22,869 bases of DNA, taken from the IMG/VR virus record IMGVR_UViG_3300021425_000206, positions 1 to 22,869 of that record. One strand, 5' to 3'. Below, one piece after another: positions 5,309-20,700 of the stretch. Under the pieces are notes generated by a model. That model was not told where the DNA came from, did not search any database, and saw nothing but the letters and a program-made list of their open reading frames with translations. The stretch's first letter is position 1. Each line of letters opens with the position of its first letter. Origin of the DNA: a virus. The translations under genes were made by a program, and so were the position numbers.

Positions 5309-5725
5309 ATGACATATTATGTAGGTAATGATCCTAAAACAATTAACGATAGTTTTATTAAGCGTTACTTCTACGGACTTCGTAGGAACGACGACGGAGA
5401 ACTATTTTTAGTAAGACTAGACCAACTGTCAAGTGGTACAGATAATGTAGTTATTATAAACAATGAAGCATCGTCAGATGAAAACTTTCCAGATTTTGAA
5501 GAAGGTATTGATTTTTTGGACGGAATTGATGATGATCATAACATTGTATATGACAACTTAAATTATCCTCAGTTACGTTGGGATGGTAGATTTTTATTAT
5601 ATTATGTTGAACCGGAAACAGGACAATTTGTACAGGTAATTAACGGAAGTTATGATTTCCCAGCAAATATTTCAACTGACGGAACCCAATCAACATATGG
5701 CGGACAACGTGGAGCAGGTTACTAA
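5309..5725 (+). CDS. Hypothetical protein in structural operon (138 aa)
   Basis: ATG 5309 is preceded by GGAGG at 5295-5299, a strong Shine-Dalgarno site nine bases upstream and inside the end of the previous gene. The stop TAA at 5723-5725 overlaps the next ATG by one base (TAATG), so the two products are probably made coupled. The protein is acidic in the middle (DFEEGIDFLDGIDDDH), aromatic near the end (RWDGRFLLYYVEPETG) and finishes in a glycine-rich tail. I do not recognise a domain. Its location between a fibre gene and a giant adhesin gene suggests a structural or assembly role, for example an adaptor or partner of the neighbouring large protein. Confidence 0.85.
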   Translation: MTYYVGNDPKTINDSFIKRYFYGLRRNDDGELFLVRLDQLSSGTDNVVIINNEASSDENFPDFEEGIDFLDGIDDDHNIVYDNLNYPQLRWDGRFLLYYVEPETGQFVQVINGSYDFPANISTDGTQSTYGGQRGAGY

Positions 5726-8700
5726 TGGCTGAATTTAAACTAGAAAGATTTAAGTATTCATGGAAAGGTGCCTGGACCGGCAGCACCGAATATAAACGAG
5801 ACGACATTGTTAAGGTTGGAGGCAAGTCATATGTTTGTTTGATAACGCATACATCCGATGCTGACTTTAATGTTGATTTAGAAGCAGTTGTCCCAGGTTC
5901 ATCGCCTCCAATTCCGGCTCCTAAATGGATTGTAATGACTGACAGTAGATCGTTTGTAGGAAACTGGGCTACTGCAACTATCTATAATAGAGGTGATATT
6001 GTACAATTTGATGGATCTTTATGGCTTTGTATTGATGGCCATACCTCAACAGATTTTGCTTCAGATTATACAAATTGGGAAGTTTTTGCACAAGGTATAA
6101 AATTCAAAGCAGACTGGGGTACTAGTATAGGGTATGGACCAGGTGCGTTAGTAAAATACAACGGTATTGTATATAAATGTATTAATCCTCACACTTCGGC
6201 CGGATCTATAAACGATAATATTGATGATTGGGAAGTATTTTTTGATGGAGTTGAATACGCAGGCAATTTGCAACCTCTTACTACATACAGAGTCAACGAT
6301 TTAATTAAATTCGGCGGATCAATTTTTAAGGTTATAGAAGAATTTACTAGTAGCGAAGAAGGAATAGATGACACCAAAGTTCAAATGTTACTTCCAGGCT
6401 TCCAATTTGACGGCGACTGGGTATCAACAACAGCATATAGCATAGGAGATGTTGTTCGTTACGGCGGATATATGTTCTATTGTACTAATAATAACATTGG
6501 TATTGATCCTTTCGTGAGAGATGAAGATAGTTCAAACTATTGGTCAAAACTAGCACTAACATACAATTTTAGAGGAACCTGGTCTGAAGCAGCAGATTAT
6601 AAGCCAGGTGACATTGTACAACGCGGCGGCGATCTTTACCTTGCAAAATATGAAGTAGGCGGATACGAACAAGATGGATCTTCATTAGATTATCTTGACA
6701 CAGATGTTTGGGAAAAAATAGCGCCAGGTGCTGTCTGGGGGAAAGAAAATGCAGTAGCAGGATTAGGGTCCACCGACGGTACAACAGTCAGATATAATGT
6801 TGAATTTTCTTCACCTAGAGAAGGCGATATCGGCAACAAATATGTTATTGCTGGCGAATATAGAGCTACTTTGAAGTTTTATGAAAATTATACGTACATT
6901 TTTAATCAAGATGCTTTAGAAAATGTTTACTTTCCTAACGCTAACGGTACAGACCCTAATCCACACCCTTTAAATTTTAGTGCTGATAATCCTAACGGAG
7001 AGCGCGGTGGCGGAACTGGATTCTTAAGTGGTGTAACTTATTATCTAGATGATGAGATAGTAACGTACAGTGATTATAATGATACTACAAACTTTCAAGC
7101 TGCTACTAATCGTAGAGTAGAAATTTTTATAACTCCTCAAACTCCAAGAACATTGTATTATTGGTGTTGGAACCATGAAGACATGGGTAACACTATAACA
7201 GTTGACGATGAACCAGTGTTGTCAGGAAACTGGACTGCTGACAGAGAATACCTTGTAAATGAAGTTGTATACTACTTAGGAACAGCATATAAGTGTAATA
7301 CACAACACTTGTCGGCAGATGATAATTTTCCAGGAGACAATGGAAGCGGATATTACTATTGGGACACATACATTGAAAGAGGTTCCTCAGCAGGTTTAAA
7401 TGACAAAGGCGATTTACTAACGTACGGTTTAAACCGCACACTTGCAGGTGACCAATCTTCATTAGGTCCTGTTGCGTTACCAATAGGCGAAGAAAGAGAA
7501 GTATTATCTATAAACACTGACCAAGAAGCCTTTTGGAGAGCAAGAATACAAGATAGCGACACTATCTTTGTAGGTCAAAACGGTATGGACTTAGACGGAT
7601 ATGGTTTAAGTCCTGACAGGCCTTTTGCAACAGTAAAACATGCTTGTGAGTATGTAGAAGACAACTTCACTGCCGGAACACCAACAAAGGTTTATGTAGC
7701 AACTGGAAATTATATCGAAAGCGGTCCTATAAGTATTCCAGCAGGCTGTGTTGTAATGGGAGACGAACTTAGGGCAACAAAAATCACAGCAAACGATCCA
7801 TTTCCGGATTATGCGGGCGACGATTATATTACGAAAAAATTGTATATACAGCATTTGTTAACTTTTTTAGATGATCTTTTCCAGAATAGACTAGTAACTT
7901 CGACACCTGGTAATAATATTTTCCAAGATAGATCTGTACCAGCAGTTGGCTCTGACCCTACAGAAACTGTTGTTGAATTAATAGACTTCCATGACGAATA
8001 TTTAGATTACTGGTTAGGTTCCGGCATTGTAAACCCCACAGTGGTTGGAACTAACACTGCTACAGTTGATACAAGTTATTTAGATGCAGTTGACATATTA
8101 GAAAAAAACAAAAACTTTATTGCAAATGAAATCTTTGCTTGGCTAAGATTTACTCAACCAACCTATACCTTTGATGAAAATAGAATTCGGAGAGACATTT
8201 ATCATTTTTTAAGAGCTGTAAAACACGATTTAATTTATACAGGGAACCATAGAACTATTCTACATTGTAGAGACTTTAAAAACAAAGCATTAGGTAGCCA
8301 GTTTGATGATTTATTCTATATTAGAGATACAACCGGTGTAAGAAATTGTACTATTAATGGACTTAGAGGAACACTGAATCCTCCGGGCGTATTTGATTTG
8401 TATCAGCGTCCAACAGGCGGCGCATGTGTAAGTTTAGATCCAGGTTGGGGTCCAGATGACGAGAGTGTTTGGATTAAGAATAGATCACCTTATATACAGG
8501 GTGTAACTAACATAGGATCAAACTGTGTAGGACAAAAGATTGATGGATCTCTACACAACGGCGGACTAAAGTCTTGTACATCTAATGACTTTACTCAAGT
8601 CTTAAGTGATGGAGTAGGAGCATGGATTACTAACGGCGGAAGAGCAGAACTTGTATCTGTGTTTACGTATTATTGTGTAATCGGATATCTTGCAGACGAA

Positions 8701-11700
8701 GGCGGCACAATCCGTGCAACTAATGGAAATAACTCTTACGGAGTTTTTGGTGCTATTGCAGATGGTTTTGATCCAACCGAAACTCCGCAAACTGCGTTTA
8801 TAGATAACCAAAGTCAAAACGAAGCTACCGTTGAATCTGTCTTTGCAGGAGAATTTACTGATCAGATATTTGCTTTAGAGTACAACCATTGTGGAGAAGA
8901 ATACAGTCAAGCACAAGCAGATATTGTAGGTGCAGGAATTAATGCCTCAGTAGAGTTTAATGACTTTAGATCTGGCGGATTATATAATGTAAGAATTATT
9001 AACAGTGACGGATCGGGAGCAATAGGTGGTTCGGGCTATAGATTGCAAACCGGAAATGCACAAACTGGAGACAGCACCACTATAACATTAGATACTGGAT
9101 CTGGATTTGATGAAGTAGACATTTTAGGGCAAAGAGTAATTATTATATCAGGTGACGGAACAGGGCAATATGGATATGTCCAAGCGTATAATCCAGGTAC
9201 AAAAATTTGTACTGTATATAAAGAAAGCACCGATACAATAGGTTGGGACCATATTGTTCCAGGTACAACTATTGAAACATTATTAACTTCAAATACCCAA
9301 TATCGTATTGAACCGAGAGTTGTATGTGATCCGCCGCCAACAAGTGGAGCAGAATATTCTTTACCGCAAATTAGACCGTATGAGGATGTACAGTTTGGTC
9401 AAACAACCAGCATTTTTACGGGATTGCAAATGGACCCCGGTAGCGGTGAGGTAGACGGTATTGCTGCATCACCTGCTGTATTTAATTTGACACGCTCTGC
9501 CCAAACATATACAATAGAATTTACTGATGAAGGAGCTGGATATGTAGTGGGAGATCAAACTGTTATCAGCGGCTCTGCATTAGGAGGTACTGCAGGAGTT
9601 AATGATTGTACAATTACGGTAACAGCAGTTACTGAAGACAGTACAAATAGTATTGTAAGCGTTAGTGTATTAGGAACTGGAATTGGCGGAAAATATGTTG
9701 CAATTTCAGATCCAAACTTCTTTTCATACAGCGATAATGGCCAAACCTGGACAGAAGGAAACTTGCCTTTTGTAAGCACTTGGATCAAAGTAGTAAATGG
9801 TAATAATAGATTTTTTGCTTTGCCTACAGAGGAATCAGATCAGTTCGGTTTAAGTTTAGATGGAATAAATTGGGAAAGAAAAACTGTAGGTCCTTTAGCA
9901 GAATATAGCGATATAATTTACGGAGGCGGAAGATTTGTTGCTATAGCAGAAAATAGCAATACTACAATTTATAGTTCAGACGGCGATACTTGGGCACAAG
10001 GTACTATTCCTGATGATGCTTTAGGAGATTCAACAGCAAGCCAATGGCTTTATCTTGCGTATGGAAATGGCAAGTATGTTGCTGTATCAGGCAATGATAG
10101 TGCAAGTGCTACATCATCAGATGGAGATACTTGGCTAAGGCATACCGGATTACCAGCAGGGTCTAATGATTGGGTAGGCCTAGCATTTGGAAGAGGTAGA
10201 TTTGTTTTATTAGCTAGGACTGGGGAACTTTATTATAGCTTTGATGGAATAACATGGACAAGCGGCGGAGATATGGTAACTCAAGACGGTTCAACTTCTA
10301 TGAATTGGACAAAGTTAAAATATGAAAATGGTCTCTTTGTTGCATTATGTGATACAACTGGATTAACAATTGGCGCAGATGCTTCAGACGGAACTACAAA
10401 TTTCTTTGCAACATCGCAAGACGGTATTTTATGGACTGGAAAAACATTTCCAGGATTTAAAATTTGGGGCTGTATAACACATGGTCCTGCCGGATATGTT
10501 GCCCTTTCTAAAAATGCAACATTAAATGGTGTAGCAATAGTCCAGACGGGCGCAACTGCATTACTAAGATCAGATGTTGGATCTAATGCGTTTGATAGCG
10601 TCAAAATTTGGGATTGCGGCAGCGGCTATGATGCCGCAAATCCGCCTAGCATTACTGTTACTGCAAATCCAGATGTAACTGTAGAATTAGCTACAGAGCA
10701 AAGAATAGGGTCAACAGGAACTATTGGAGCTCCGGATTGGATAAACAGAGGTCAAGGATACAGATCTTCTAGCACTGTTGTAACACTAACAGGCAACGGA
10801 TATGCAGATAATTTTCCAGTTGGTAATGATGTAGTTTTAACCGGAGTAAGTGTTGTTCCAGGTCCTGGAGCCCAGATTAGATTCGATGTTATACCAGATG
10901 AAGAAACACCTGACCCAGACGATAAAAAACTTTTTGCAGCAGTGGGTATTGTTGATTTAGGAGATGACGGCACAGGAAATGGCACTAACAGAATACGACT
11001 AACAGTTAGTCCTAAAGTTGAACTTGCAGACAATGTGCCACATGAGTCGGAAGTAGAAATTAGATTAAGATACAGCCAATGTCGCATTTCAGGACATGAC
11101 TTCCTTGATATCGGTACCGGTAATTTTGAAGAAACTAACTATCCAGAAATATATGCCGATGGAAATTATTTTGTAAGCGCACCTGAAAATGAAGTTTACG
11201 AAGAAAACGGCGGCAGAGTATTCTACACATCAAGTGACCAAGATGGTAATTTTAGAGCAGGTGAATTGTTTAGTGTTCAACAGGCTACTGGTATTGTAAC
11301 AATTAGTGCTGAATTCTTTAATCTAGACGGATTAAGCGAACTTGCACTAGGCGGAGTAAGACTAGGTGGTTCAGGTGCAGTAGTAAGAGAATTTTCAACA
11401 GACGTAAACTTTACTGAAGATTCGAACAATGTTGTACCTACACAAAGAGCAATAATTACTTTCTTGGCTAACAGGCTATCAGAAGGCGGTTCTGAGTTAG
11501 AAACTAACCAGCTTACTGCTGGACGAGTATTATTAGGCGGCGAAAACAATGAAATTAGGCATTCTTTAGGCGGTATTGTAGAAATTCCAGTTTTAGCGAT
11601 ATTTGAAGGTACAGGAGATCCTTTGAATCCGCAAGATAGCGCACAAGTAAGTGGTTTAATGCAAGCATATCCACTTTATTTTAGAACGGTAGATGAATCT

Positions 11701-11709
11701 ATCCAGTAA
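5725..11709 (+). CDS. Giant modular adhesin / virion structural protein (1994 aa)
   Basis: ATG 5725 overlaps the upstream stop by one base. Residues 11-335 hold six tandem modules of ~50 aa patterned W-x-x-x-x-x-Y-x-x-x-D-x-V-x-x-G-x-x-Y-x-C-x-x-x-H-T-S, resembling CBM5/12 carbohydrate-binding modules; a seventh lies at ~497-550. Between modules 6 and 7 is a cupredoxin-like region (HPLNFS with His414, then Cys481, His484, Met487). A beta-helix starts at ~613 (IFVGQNG, GDELRATK) and resumes at ~843, with SLDPGWGPD at 903. It is broken by a helical insertion at ~690-842 holding one degenerate module, in which Ile821 sits at the Cys position. A GxGY-type module (~1250-1315) precedes six Asp-box-like motifs of the type SxDGxxW (about 1336-1570). 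The C-terminus has GHDFLDIGTGNF at 1790, DQDGNFRAGELF at 1838 and VVPTQRA at 1903. I infer a glycan-binding fibre or baseplate adhesin. It is a paralogue of the next gene. Confidence 0.92.
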   Translation: MAEFKLERFKYSWKGAWTGSTEYKRDDIVKVGGKSYVCLITHTSDADFNVDLEAVVPGSSPPIPAPKWIVMTDSRSFVGNWATATIYNRGDIVQFDGSLWLCIDGHTSTDFASDYTNWEVFAQGIKFKADWGTSIGYGPGALVKYNGIVYKCINPHTSAGSINDNIDDWEVFFDGVEYAGNLQPLTTYRVNDLIKFGGSIFKVIEEFTSSEEGIDDTKVQMLLPGFQFDGDWVSTTAYSIGDVVRYGGYMFYCTNNNIGIDPFVRDEDSSNYWSKLALTYNFRGTWSEAADYKPGDIVQRGGDLYLAKYEVGGYEQDGSSLDYLDTDVWEKIAPGAVWGKENAVAGLGSTDGTTVRYNVEFSSPREGDIGNKYVIAGEYRATLKFYENYTYIFNQDALENVYFPNANGTDPNPHPLNFSADNPNGERGGGTGFLSGVTYYLDDEIVTYSDYNDTTNFQAATNRRVEIFITPQTPRTLYYWCWNHEDMGNTITVDDEPVLSGNWTADREYLVNEVVYYLGTAYKCNTQHLSADDNFPGDNGSGYYYWDTYIERGSSAGLNDKGDLLTYGLNRTLAGDQSSLGPVALPIGEEREVLSINTDQEAFWRARIQDSDTIFVGQNGMDLDGYGLSPDRPFATVKHACEYVEDNFTAGTPTKVYVATGNYIESGPISIPAGCVVMGDELRATKITANDPFPDYAGDDYITKKLYIQHLLTFLDDLFQNRLVTSTPGNNIFQDRSVPAVGSDPTETVVELIDFHDEYLDYWLGSGIVNPTVVGTNTATVDTSYLDAVDILEKNKNFIANEIFAWLRFTQPTYTFDENRIRRDIYHFLRAVKHDLIYTGNHRTILHCRDFKNKALGSQFDDLFYIRDTTGVRNCTINGLRGTLNPPGVFDLYQRPTGGACVSLDPGWGPDDESVWIKNRSPYIQGVTNIGSNCVGQKIDGSLHNGGLKSCTSNDFTQVLSDGVGAWITNGGRAELVSVFTYYCVIGYLADEGGTIRATNGNNSYGVFGAIADGFDPTETPQTAFIDNQSQNEATVESVFAGEFTDQIFALEYNHCGEEYSQAQADIVGAGINASVEFNDFRSGGLYNVRIINSDGSGAIGGSGYRLQTGNAQTGDSTTITLDTGSGFDEVDILGQRVIIISGDGTGQYGYVQAYNPGTKICTVYKESTDTIGWDHIVPGTTIETLLTSNTQYRIEPRVVCDPPPTSGAEYSLPQIRPYEDVQFGQTTSIFTGLQMDPGSGEVDGIAASPAVFNLTRSAQTYTIEFTDEGAGYVVGDQTVISGSALGGTAGVNDCTITVTAVTEDSTNSIVSVSVLGTGIGGKYVAISDPNFFSYSDNGQTWTEGNLPFVSTWIKVVNGNNRFFALPTEESDQFGLSLDGINWERKTVGPLAEYSDIIYGGGRFVAIAENSNTTIYSSDGDTWAQGTIPDDALGDSTASQWLYLAYGNGKYVAVSGNDSASATSSDGDTWLRHTGLPAGSNDWVGLAFGRGRFVLLARTGELYYSFDGITWTSGGDMVTQDGSTSMNWTKLKYENGLFVALCDTTGLTIGADASDGTTNFFATSQDGILWTGKTFPGFKIWGCITHGPAGYVALSKNATLNGVAIVQTGATALLRSDVGSNAFDSVKIWDCGSGYDAANPPSITVTANPDVTVELATEQRIGSTGTIGAPDWINRGQGYRSSSTVVTLTGNGYADNFPVGNDVVLTGVSVVPGPGAQIRFDVIPDEETPDPDDKKLFAAVGIVDLGDDGTGNGTNRIRLTVSPKVELADNVPHESEVEIRLRYSQCRISGHDFLDIGTGNFEETNYPEIYADGNYFVSAPENEVYEENGGRVFYTSSDQDGNFRAGELFSVQQATGIVTISAEFFNLDGLSELALGGVRLGGSGAVVREFSTDVNFTEDSNNVVPTQRAIITFLANRLSEGGSELETNQLTAGRVLLGGENNEIRHSLGGIVEIPVLAIFEGTGDPLNPQDSAQVSGLMQAYPLYFRTVDESIQ
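5755..6729 (+). repeat. Six tandem CBM5/12-like modules (1994-aa protein)
   Basis: Modules of roughly 50-60 aa share an entry W, a Y, a D-x-[IV]-V strand, a G-x-x-[YF] turn and an exit W. The YxC...HTS signature is kept in modules 1-3 (WLC in module 2) and degrades in modules 4-6. A seventh module lies apart at about 7213-7374, after the cupredoxin-like region. The CBM5/12 resemblance is by pattern only. Confidence 0.65.
6790..7200 (+). other. Cupredoxin-like domain within the 1994-aa protein
   Basis: Residues ~356-492 contain GEYRATLKFYENYTYIFNQ, then PHPLNFS (His414), a long loop, and TLYYWCWNHEDMGN (Cys481, His484, Met487). His plus C-x-x-H-x-x-M near the end of a beta-sandwich resembles the type I copper ligand set of plastocyanin-like proteins. 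The paralogue at 11755 lacks this region. Fold and metal binding are inferred. Confidence 0.5.
9715..10440 (+). repeat. Six Asp-box-like repeats (beta-propeller-like) in the 1994-aa protein
   Basis: Motifs SDNGQTW, SLDGINW, SSDGDTW, SSDGDTW, SFDGITW and SQDGILW recur, each usually preceded by a GxGRFVAxx-type strand. The spacing resembles sialidase / BNR propeller blades. I see no basis for naming a catalytic site. Confidence 0.65.
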
Positions 11710-11754: not shown

Positions 11755-14700
11755 ATGGCAGAGTTTAAATTAGGAAGAATTAGATTTGTTTGGAAAAATG
11801 AATGGGTAACTTCCACAACATATTATAAAGATGACGTTGTAAGATTCGGCGGAAAAATTTATATCTGTGTCGAAGGACACGAATCATCCCCGGACTTTTT
11901 TACCGATTTTGATATTGTTCCACCAAAATGGAATCTTGTATCAGACGGACAATCATGGAAAGGTACTTGGACAACTAGTACAAGCTATATTATTGATGAT
12001 ATTGTTTCATACGGTGCGCGGTTATATATTTGTACAGCTAATCATACTTCACAAGCCCTTGCTGCCGATGGCTTAGAAGCAGATATTGCAAACTGGACAG
12101 TGTTTGCTGAAGGATTAAACTGGACAGGTGACTGGACAGTAGAAACAAGTTATAAAATTAATGATGTTGTAAAATATGGTTCATCTGTGTACGTGGCCAA
12201 TACAGCACATACATCACAAGCTCTTGCTGCTGACGGGCTAGAAGCGGATATTGCAAACTGGGATTTATTCAACCAAGGAATTGACTACAAATACGAATGG
12301 GTCACAGGTACTAGATACAAAGTAAATGATGTTATTAGATACGGCGCAGGACTATGGGTATGTACTACAGCACACACTGCAAGTGCAGCATTTGGCACAG
12401 ATAGTGCTAATTGGGAAAAATTTGTTGAAGGATTCCAATTTGAAGGCGAATGGGACGCATATACTCCATACCAAGAAGGTGATGTAGTACGTTACGGAGG
12501 CAATACTTATATTGCCAAAACATCAAACGTTGAGAAAAAACCTGCACAAGAAGCAGTTGACTGGGAAATTTTTTCGCAAGGTATTAGATTTTTAGGTGAA
12601 TGGGGAGAAGATAGCTCTTCATATGAATATAGGGTAGGTGAATTAGTAAGACAAGGTGGATATACATATATTTGTATTCAAGATCATTCTAATCAACAAC
12701 CTCCTAATGCAACATATTGGAACAGATTAAACAGCGGACTTGACTGGCGTGGCGAATGGCTAGATGATCAAGAGTACTTCTTAGGTGATGTAGTGCGTTA
12801 CGGTGCAAATACATATGTATGTGTAGGAGGACACATTTCAGAAGGAGACGATTTTAGCACAGAAACTAAAATCGAACCAGGTGGCGGAGCACAAAACTCT
12901 CGTCCGGATTTAGATACTTCTGGAACTTATTGGAATATTCTCGCAATAGGTAAAGAAGAAGATGTACTTACTACTACAGGAGACTTGGTATATTATACAG
13001 GATCTGCTCCTGCTAGACTTCCAATCGGAACTGATGGACAAGTTTTAACTGTTGGAGCAAATAATTTACCTGAATGGGCAACATTAGGTTCTGCAGAAGA
13101 TGTTTATTGGGTAGCTGAACATGGTGTTGATAGTCCTTCTCCAATTTATGGTAAAACTATTGACAGGCCCTTTAAAACTATCCGTTATGCTTGCGAGCAA
13201 GTAGAAAAAGGAGCAAAAAATCCAAATGCAGCAAGGTTATTAGAACTTAACAGACAATTTATTCAAAGAGAAATTGTAGAGTGGACTGATTACCAAATAA
13301 CAAATAACATTGCGCCTTTCACTACTAGTTTTGCATATCAAAGTGCAAAATGCGAAAGAGATATGGGCTTTATTGTTGATGCTTTAATTTGGGATATCAC
13401 ACACGGCGGCAATGCTAAATCGAGAGAAGCTGCACTAAGTTATGTCAACGACACTACAGGATCACCGTATCTAACACAAAAAGACGAAACAAAGGCAAGT
13501 ATTAATTACGGCTTGACTGTAATTGAAGCTGTGTTAAATCAAACAGCACCTAGCACAAACTATCAAGTTGCAAATGGAGATAATTCAACTGCTATTGTAG
13601 AGCAATATACAGAAACAGGGTTGCAGGCAGAAACTGTACTGTCAGATTGTACAGCATTAGTAAAAATCATTACTGATGCAATCACAGCAGGAGTAGCAGA
13701 TGACATACCTGCAGAAGACTGGCCTACTACACTTATTAGAGTTTCAACAGGTAGATATTACGAAGTACTACCGATAATTGTTCCTAGAGAAACATGTGTA
13801 ATGGGAGACGAACTACGTGCAACAAATGTAAATGCTAGAACAAAGTATAATCAAGCTGATCAATTAACTCCAGCTTCTGATGCAAAATTTAGTTTTGAAG
13901 GCATTAAGAGGATGGAAAAAGTTTTAAATGATGTTGTTAGAGGTTATACTGTAGAAAAAACTACAGGCAACACTTTAACACAAGTTTCAGAATATCCATT
14001 AGCTGAAGCACCTCAAGAAACTGCTGTAGGAAAACTTGCAAGAGTTATTCGTAGAAATATTGACTTCGGAGTCAATCAAAAACTAGAATACGAACATATT
14101 GCTATCGATCAATTTTCAGACAGCGCAGACGGTTACGGTAGAGATTTAATAAGGGCAAACCAACAATTTATTTTAGACGAAATGATGGCATATCTAGCAG
14201 ACGCGGATGACGGCTATCCAGATCTAAAATACAGCCGAACTAAGTGTCGTAGAGATGCAAGTTTCATCATCGATTCTGTATTATATGATTTAACTTATGG
14301 CGGCAACTGGCAAAGTGTAGAAGCAGGAAAAGCATATTTTGATGGCGCATCTAATAACCTTCAAATTAATTCTACTGAAAAAACAGCAACACTTGCAGCA
14401 TATGCTTATTTAAAATCGTTAATGCAAACTGTATGTAGAAATATTACTGTTAGTCCTGTGTATTCAGAAACAACTCAGGTTGTAAACCCAGATGCTGGTA
14501 ATGCAGGAACATCAAACACTATTGGTAGTTTGATGGACGATGTGATTACTGTTATAAGAGACGGGTTTGATAATGCACCAACCATTACCTATCCAAGCAC
14601 AGCAAATGCTGATAGCGACTTAGTTGCTGCATCTACTGCAATGACAAACGCAAGTAGTCAGATTCAAATCGATACTATCGATTTTATTAGCAAATACTTT

Positions 14701-17700: not shown

Positions 17701-20700
17701 TGTATCGGACAAAAAATCGACGGTGCACTACACGACGGCGGCAACGACTCAATGGTATCAAACGATTTTACTCAATTGATGGGCGACGGCATCGGTGCTT
17801 GGATCACGAATAATGGTAGAGCAGAACTTGTGTCGGTGTTTACCTACTATTCACACGTTGGATACCTTGCAGAAAATGGCGGCAGAATACGTGCAACGAA
17901 TGGTAACAACTCATACGGAGACTTTGGTAGTATTGCTGAAGGATTCGACGCTGAAGAAACTCCAGTAACCGGCGCAGTCGATAACGTTAGCCAATATAAT
18001 GCTGTGATATCAAATGTTGTAACAGACCAAGATAAAATTTTAGTAGCAGAATTTAGTCATGCAGGAAACGACTATACAAAGGCACAGATTGATTTCTTTG
18101 GCGCAGGTGATAATGAAGAAGTTGTTGCAAACGAATTTAGAGATGACAGTATATTTGAAGTAAAACTATTAGATTTAGACGACTCTAGCGGAGAAATTGG
18201 AGGAGACGGATTTACTGTTGTACAAAACACTGCACAAGGCGGTACAACAACAAGCATTTCTCTTGCAGCAACAGACGGAGCAAGTTCTACAGCATACCCC
18301 GGCATGAAAGTTATTTTATCAGGTGGTGCAGGAATTGGCCAATATGCATTAATAGATACATATGATTCCGGAACAAAGATTGCTACGGTTGTAAGAGAAT
18401 CAGACGGAGCAGCAGGTTGGGATCATTTTGTTCCGGGTACTGCTATCGTTGCACCTAATAGTTCTACAACATATGAAATAGAACCAGCTCTTGATATTGC
18501 TGCTCCTCCTAAGTCAAACGGCACGATTACTTTACCATCAAGTTCTACTTGGGTAGATGTAGATTATGTTGAAACATCAGCACAATACACAGGTATTTCA
18601 GGTACATCAAGTGCTAACGGATTGAGTGCTACGTTTGATGTTACTAGAACAGGAAGCAAATACTATGTAAGTATTAATGCTGGCGGATCAGGATACGTTA
18701 GACTAGAAACAGTAACCATTGCCGGTACAAGTTTAGACGGTGCAAGTCCAGCTAACGATCTAGTTATTACTGTTACTAGTGTAGATACAAACGGTGCTGT
18801 TACTGGATTAGATATAAGCGGTGTTGGACAAAAAGGTAAATTCCTTGCAATTAGTAACACAACTACTACAGCAGCATTAAGTATAGACGGTGAAACGTGG
18901 ACAGCGGAAACATTGCCAACAGCAGGATCAGGAACCTGGTCAAGTATTGCTAGTGGTCTGCTAGATGATGGTTCATCAGACTATTTTGTAAGTAGTGTAG
19001 TTGTTGTTGCAGATGGTAGCAACAATGTAGCATACAGTGCGGATGCAGATACTTGGAGTAGCACAACACTTCCAGGAGGATTGAACACTGGTGCAGAAAC
19101 AAGAGTTGCATTTGGTAATGTAGCACTTAATGATAACAGATATGTTGTTATTAGTTCAGCAGACCAAGATGTTGCATACTCACAAGATGCTGGTGCTACT
19201 TGGACACTTAATACAAATGCTTTACCTGGTATTGGTTATGATGCTATTGCATTCGGACAAGGTATATTTGTAGCTGTTCAAAGTGGTTCTACTAATGCAG
19301 TTTGGTCAGAAGACGGAATACTTTGGAATAGTATCTCATTACCTAGCGCAGCAGCTTCTGCTACAGATATTGCTTTTGGTAATAACCATTGGGTAATATT
19401 AGGAAGTACTAATGGAACTATGTATTCATTAGATGGTAAAAATTGGACAAACGGATCTTTAGCATTGCCATTAACTGCTACTGAACGTAAAATTGCATAT
19501 GGACAGGGCGTTTTTGTAATTACTTCAGACGATACAAATGAAGTGCAATGGTCGCAGGATGGTATTTACTGGCAAGCATATACAGTCACTACTATAACAG
19601 GTGGGTATAATGCTTGTGCGTTTGGTAATCCTAATAGAACAGGAAAGTTCGTTCTACTACCCAATGCAGCAGGAACCGGAGGTGCATACGCTAGACTCGG
19701 AGCCAAAGCAATAGCTCGTGTAGGTGTAGCAAGTGAGAAAATTTTCGAAATAAGACTACAGGAGCCAGGTTCGTGTTATGATCCTTTAAATTTACCTGCT
19801 GTAACTGTCACAGATCCTGCTAACATTTATGATATTAATGTTAGAGTGCGTGTAGGTAGCGGAGTTCTTGCTAATCCAACCTACAACAATAGAGGTAGTG
19901 GATATCTTGAAGCAACAGCAGACATTAACGATAACAACTCTAATGGTGGCGCAGACTTTATACAATTTGGATCATTTATTGCTGTTAAGAGACTAACAGC
20001 AAGACCAGTTCCAGGATCTAACGTAGTGTTTAGCGGATTGTCTACAACATATAAACTTGTAAATGTTGTTAGTTTTGTAGGCGACGAAGATGGCTCATAT
20101 ACAGCATTTTTAAACGTGTCTCCAGAGGTAACAGTTGCAGATGAAATTACTGACGAAGCGTCAGTAACTTGTAGAATACGTTATTCACAGGTACGTTTAA
20201 CTGGACACGACTTCCTTGATATTGGTACAGGTAATTTTACTAAAACAAATTACCCAAATACGCCTCTTGTTGATCCTGACCCAGCAGACGAAACAAAAGA
20301 GTTTAACGGTGGACGAGTGTTCTTTACTGCTACAGACCAAGATGGTAACTTTAGAGTTGGTAACTTGTTTAGCGTTGAACAGGCAACTGGTGTTGCTACA
20401 CTTGATGCTGAAGCATTTAACATTGCAGGTCTACAAGAACTATCGCTAGGCGAAGTAACACTAGGCGGTAATAGTGCAGCAGTTAACGAATTTAGTACTG
20501 ACCCGTTCATGACTGCAAACAGCGACAATGTTGTTCCAACACAAAGAGCTGTGAAAGCATACATTGAAGCACAAATTGGTGGTGGTGGTGCGTCCTTGAA
20601 CGTAAACACAGTCACAGCTGGAGATATATTCATTGGTTCGAATATTATAACTACAGCATCAGGTTCAGCGATAAATATCACTGGAACTATGAACTTTACT

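Follow-up and report, generated by a model that had tools for sequence, protein, structure and literature searches.

The segment between the sixth and seventh CBM5/12-like modules of a 1994-residue tail fibre/adhesin-like protein is confidently predicted, on the basis of a structural model, to form an independent domain with a cupredoxin fold, and comparisons of relatives indicate that it belongs to a widespread and mobile family of domains. The DNA analysed here, referred to as the window, is a stretch of 22,869 nucleotides from a 22.9-kb virus record. We consider it probable that this tail module contains a type-1-like copper site by which it is stiffened; the site would be loaded after lysis of the host or at the cell envelope. 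The features on which this assignment is based are listed in Table 1.

Table 1. Positions in the window of the cupredoxin-fold domain, its predicted ligands, and neighboring modules
Feature	Position	Strand	Residues, context, or basis
Tail fibre/adhesin-like protein of 1994 residues that contains the domain	5725..11709	+	ORF; PHROG 9851
CBM5/12-like module 6, directly N-terminal of the domain	6574..6723	+	Residues about 284-333
Cupredoxin-fold domain	6772..7212	+	Residues 350-496; AlphaFold2 model, fold search, profile match at residues 357-491
His414, first predicted metal ligand	6964..6966	+	In PHPLNFS
Helical insertion between strands, missing in compact relatives	7063..7101	+	Residues about 447-459; model compared with compact model, alignment
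Cys481, predicted thiolate ligand, end of penultimate strand	7165..7167	+	In YYWCWNHEDMG
His484, predicted metal ligand	7174..7176	+	In YYWCWNHEDMG
Met487, predicted axial ligand	7183..7185	+	In YYWCWNHEDMG
CBM5/12-like module 7, directly C-terminal of the domain	7225..7380	+	Residues about 501-552

The genes of the window have matches in families of baseplate wedge and tail fibre proteins of cyanophage type, and no near match to the window was found in the phage collection. Seven CBM5/12-like modules start at about residues 15, 79, 129, 180, 230, 284, and 501 of the 1994-residue protein and place the region between modules 6 and 7, where an earlier note on this DNA had located it. The extent of 6790–7200 proposed there is correct as to location, but the limits of the domain are slightly wider. 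A profile in which the four ligand columns were masked, so that the ligands could not help to find relatives, matches the domain with an E value of 2e-44, and it found nothing above threshold in the 2997-residue paralogue or in the upstream 1433-residue baseplate wedge protein. The motif C-x2-H-x2-M occurs once in the 1994-residue protein and is also missing from the paralogue, which, as had been stated, lacks the insertion. The description of the domain as inserted is borne out by orthologues L216, L217, and L220–L224, in which module 6 is joined directly to module 7. Orthologue L001 carries its copy exactly where the window protein does, and orthologues L219 and L225 have a copy without the ligands at another site, with a similar insertion point in both. 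A Pfam search with the window domain matched no family, and the domain matches positions 556–683 of PHROG 708 with an E value of 4e-13.

Within the CBM5/12-like modules themselves, the two residues of a Y-x-C-x3-H pair (YVCLITH is one example) almost always occur together or not at all. The pair was surveyed in positions 5725–7380 (residues 15–552) and 11755–13100 (the 2997-residue paralogue) of the window and in orthologues L001 and L216–L225. Both residues are present in 44 module copies, Cys only in 1, His only in 0, and neither in 24; modules at one position are related and not independent in these counts, and a few of the 24 are regular-expression matches outside modules. The pair is possibly a second metal or thiol site.

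The structure of residues 350–496 was predicted with AlphaFold2 without templates from 86 relatives, and the model has a mean pLDDT of 96.2 and a pTM of 0.90. Its best Foldseek match in the PDB is rusticyanin (E 2.4e-4, probability 1.00), and the best 50 PDB matches listed are all cupredoxin-fold copper proteins or their relatives, including laccases, copper nitrite reductase, AcoP, plastocyanin, ascorbate oxidase, and the cupredoxin-fold factor VIII. Structural alignment with VIA-align gave a Z score of 8.8 with Ssl1 laccase (3.2 Å, 109 residues aligned) and of 8.5 with Hyphomicrobium nitrite reductase (2.8 Å, 101 residues aligned). A separate template-free model of a compact, pelagiphage-type relative has a pLDDT of 93.6; for this model the top Foldseek matches are to the SO1698 peptidase, which is not a copper protein, and VIA-align ranks rusticyanin and nitrite reductase first, both with a Z score of 8.8 (2.9 Å and 90 residues aligned for rusticyanin). 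Both models have the Greek-key β-sandwich of about eight strands that is characteristic of cupredoxins. The Foldseek TM-scores are moderate (about 0.5), so that the relation to known cupredoxins is remote, and Z scores near 9 are little above the warning level of the tool. Small “beta-sandwich proteins” from Pithovirus and Marseillevirus metagenome assemblies in the BFVD also match the window model, with E values down to 1.8e-6.

The residues claimed in the earlier note, His414 in PHPLNFS and Cys481, His484, and Met487 in YYWCWNHEDMG, are at the positions given there and make up a His…Cys-xn-His-xn-Met ligand set. They correspond to H65, C132, H135, and M138 in the numbering of the model, which has strands at 67–70, 127–132, and 140–145. 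In the model a strand begins shortly after His414, the penultimate strand finishes at Cys481, and the short loop leading to the last strand contains both His484 and Met487; the helical segment of the window copy precedes the strand that bears the Cys. The cupredoxin-like fold and the final strand-loop arrangement that had been suggested are thus found both in the template-free model and in the fold search.

Searches with sequence profiles gave weaker signals. The window copy has no match to PF00127 (Copper-bind; curated cut-off, 21.2 bits) and is not filed under that family, and it is not listed among the matches to the amicyanin model TIGR02657. PF00127 is nevertheless the Pfam model that is matched most by members of the family (6 of 98; best E 0.019, weak and below the cut-off), and TIGR02657 is the NCBIfam model matched most (10 of 98, weakly; best E 0.001). 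PF25489 (At5g54830-like) matches five members weakly. The first profile has only two matches in the PDB, both weak (E 0.06 and 2) and both to copper proteins, and a single-sequence search of the PDB with the window domain returned only filamin and Ig-like matches, which were taken as chance. Profile-profile comparison with cyanophage plastocyanin gave a weak probability of 17% in which only the C-x2-H loop was aligned. The profile of the compact form matches antibody variable domains (heavy chains) through its YYC strand, better than it matches cupredoxins. We judged this likeness to be convergent because Ig folds are not listed in the fold search.

Among the 136 unique relatives found by the masked search, which have a median pairwise identity of 42%, the first His is present in 133, the Cys in 135, the second His in 135, and the Met in 133, and the four ligands are at the top of the conservation ranking apart from one core Phe. 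The homologues therefore keep the quartet, and its retention at this level of identity indicates that it is not due to chance. The conditions under which the earlier note would have given up its reading thus did not overturn it. Some of the baits contained ligand residues, and two stricter subsets were therefore counted. In the subset found with ligand-free bait words, Cys, the second His, and Met are present in 13 of 13 copies and the first His in 12 of 13; in the subset outside the fetched place and without bait words, the counts are 12 of 12 and 11 of 12, respectively, the one exception being an alignment shift. All four ligands are present in 23 of 23 copies from cellular genomes.

The manner in which the site is lost is the most informative observation. 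A wider set of 292 unique copies includes 244 with the sequence His-Cys-His-Met at the four positions. The Cys is accompanied by the second His in 247 copies, 45 copies lack both, and neither is found without the other; of the 247, 245 also have the Met, and 244 the full set. The 45 ligand-less copies were mostly fetched deliberately with a ligand-less bait, so that their number carries no meaning, whereas the absence of mixed cases is informative. A tree calculated without the ligand columns places them in one clade, made up of the second copies of cyanophage gp7-type proteins, and in the separate copy of L219, which suggests about two events of loss. The rest of the domain scaffold is retained in these copies, so the ligand residues are not needed for the fold, and the paired loss is what would be expected of a metal site and not of a fold requirement. 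Two pelagiphage-type copies, L121 and L124, have C-x2-H-x2-H in place of C-x2-H-x2-M, a natural variant of the axial ligand.

The earlier note regarded such a domain as unusual in a phage tail, but it proved to be a common mobile module of marine phage tails, present in hundreds of phage records: tblastn searches found it in 103 with the window copy as query and in 338 with the compact copy. Nearly all of the phages matched are phages of Synechococcus, Prochlorococcus, Pelagibacter, or Methylophilales, and each record has from one to seven copies, with seven in one 155-kb contig. The host proteins are cyanophage baseplate wedge (gp7/gp10-like) and tail fibre proteins and pelagiphage fibres, annotated as gp7 baseplate wedge, baseplate wedge tail fibre connector, tail fibre, or virion structural protein; in the baseplate wedge tail fibre connectors, the domain is at the C terminus. 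A protease-like ORF of 1850 residues in Prochlorococcus phage MED4-213 (L215; HQ634174.1, about 18472–18801) also holds a copy, the only one there that is detected directly by PF00127, below the cut-off.

In cell genomes, the domain is found in single-cell contigs of Pelagibacteraceae, which are probably phage, given the T7-type fibre context of close relatives, and in lipoprotein-like proteins of SAR86, SAR92, and related gammaproteobacteria, as well as in Marine Group II archaea. The proteins of SAR86, SAR92, and their relatives (L195, L198, and L205–L210) have a lipobox and Gly runs and end in the domain, as do collagen-repeat proteins of Marine Group II archaea (L201–L204).

In the reading that we consider probable, the tail protein would fold in the host cytoplasm. 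We take the metal to be copper, with a structural role and not one in electron transfer, and, because phage tails assemble in the cytoplasm, we infer that the predicted site would acquire it from seawater or at the cell envelope once lysis has occurred. A point against this reading is that the cytoplasm, as the site of phage assembly, is poor in free copper. The bound metal would tie the loop of the first His to the Cys-His-Met loop and so stiffen the module, which may form a spacer within the tail or a domain that makes contacts there. A site with these residues might also serve in electron transfer or in host recognition guided by copper. The ligand-less copies show that the domain can persist without a metal. 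A bolder proposal, which we think rather improbable, is that marine phage virions carry several real type-1 copper centers each in their baseplates and fibres, that these act in infection through redox-sensed triggering or by being recognized by the host in the course of its copper handling, and that the phages would consequently form a marine copper-binding pool.

Other accounts of the conserved cluster differ in whether a metal is bound and in which one. The domain might be a metal-free structural or adhesion β-sandwich of cupredoxin descent, with the cluster serving as a packed core or a binding surface. The cyanophage gp7 clade, which keeps the scaffold with the ligands replaced, and L219 and L225, which lost the ligands independently, show that the domain is useful without the site; against this, the Cys and second His are kept together (247) or are both gone (45) but never occur singly, the ligands rank as high in the masked search as described above, and the packing of a core would not be expected to need exactly the quartet of copper ligands. 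We regard this explanation as unlikely, although it retains a real chance of being correct. Alternatively, the site could be structural but hold another metal, such as cytoplasmic zinc. Zinc is more available than copper in the cytoplasm, where phage tail proteins fold, and His/Cys/His is a possible zinc set, but retention of the Met in 245 of 247 copies favors copper, the full set that includes it (244 of 247) fits copper better, and the nearest folds are copper proteins. Zinc or some other metal thus appears quite unlikely.

Two further possibilities concern the origin and the use of the module. An immunoglobulin-like tail decoration domain, unrelated to cupredoxins and with a chance motif, would account for the match to antibody variable domains through the YYC strand and for the annotation of cyanophage relatives as immunoglobulin domain or fiber Ig/hemolysin. 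It is very improbable, since cupredoxins are at the top of the structural alignments of both template-free models, the quartet is conserved and lost as a unit, and no Ig folds are among the matches listed, although a distant similarity would still be compatible with the latter. By analogy with the iron Trojan Horse, the virion might also carry, in this domain, copper or an electron-transfer center that acts on the envelope of the host or that a host copper uptake system recognizes; the domain would then be a device for redox reactions or for the delivery of copper. The conserved type-1-like site and the several copies per phage genome, up to the seven of the 155-kb contig, are consistent with this, as is the proposal that iron-binding HxH motifs in tail fibres are recognized by siderophore receptors (PMC11705849), but no redox partner, catalytic copper cluster, or link to a copper receptor was found, and ligand-less copies occur in the same baseplate protein. 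We consider such a device decidedly unlikely and retain a stiffening copper site as the probable explanation.

The fold and the type of site are already known, but the open-access papers searched contained no description of phage baseplates and fibres built in part from a cupredoxin module; the published idea that comes closest is that of iron in tail fibres (PMC11705849). Should copper be bound at the site, metalloprotein modules would be present in the baseplates and fibres of a large share of marine T4-like phages, a virion metal chemistry that is without description in the literature searched, and current ideas on phages and metals in the ocean, which are based on iron, would be extended to copper. 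A domain that is annotated as hypothetical in many cyanophage genomes would also receive a name and a set of residues open to testing, for which the natural ligand-less clade is a built-in control. The sharing of the module by phage tails and cell surfaces, including surface lipoproteins of SAR86, SAR92, and Marine Group II, suggests that phages and marine microbes may have exchanged parts of their surfaces.

The nearest solved folds, rusticyanin and the N-terminal cupredoxin of Hyphomicrobium copper nitrite reductase, have sequence identities of 12–21% with the window domain. They function in acidophile respiration and in denitrification, respectively, whereas the window domain is part of a tail protein, and the ligand loops are longer in rusticyanin. 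The earlier note likened the site to those of plastocyanin type; the cupredoxin topology agrees with this, but the C-x2-H-x2-M spacing is that of amicyanin, whereas the plastocyanin loop is C-x2-H-x4-M. The plastocyanin (petE) carried by the same phages has a loop that reads CAPHKGAGM and exceeds the PF00127 cut-off in 4 of 6 phage records tested. It is the product of a separate small gene, with a signal-like N terminus, is metabolic and not a part of the virion, and has weak profile similarity to the domain. Amicyanin, with ligands His53, Cys92, His95, and Met98 (PMC12723479), has the same ligand set and spacing as the window domain but serves methylamine dehydrogenase as a free electron carrier in the periplasm. 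The residue after its first His is Asn (HN) in place of the Pro of the window domain (HPL), the window domain has the additional helical insertion before the Cys strand, and none of the TIGR02657 matches shown is over the curated cut-off. PHROG 708 (cyanophage baseplate wedge subunit), which the window domain matches, covers the wedge protein in full and assigns neither a fold nor a metal function to the part that contains the domain; many relatives are annotated as gp7. The HxH sites of T4-type long tail fibres and marine phage fibres are likewise metal sites in tail proteins (PMC11705849), but they bind iron through paired His residues in a trimeric fibre, whereas the Cys/His/Met site of the window domain is predicted to lie within one β-sandwich.
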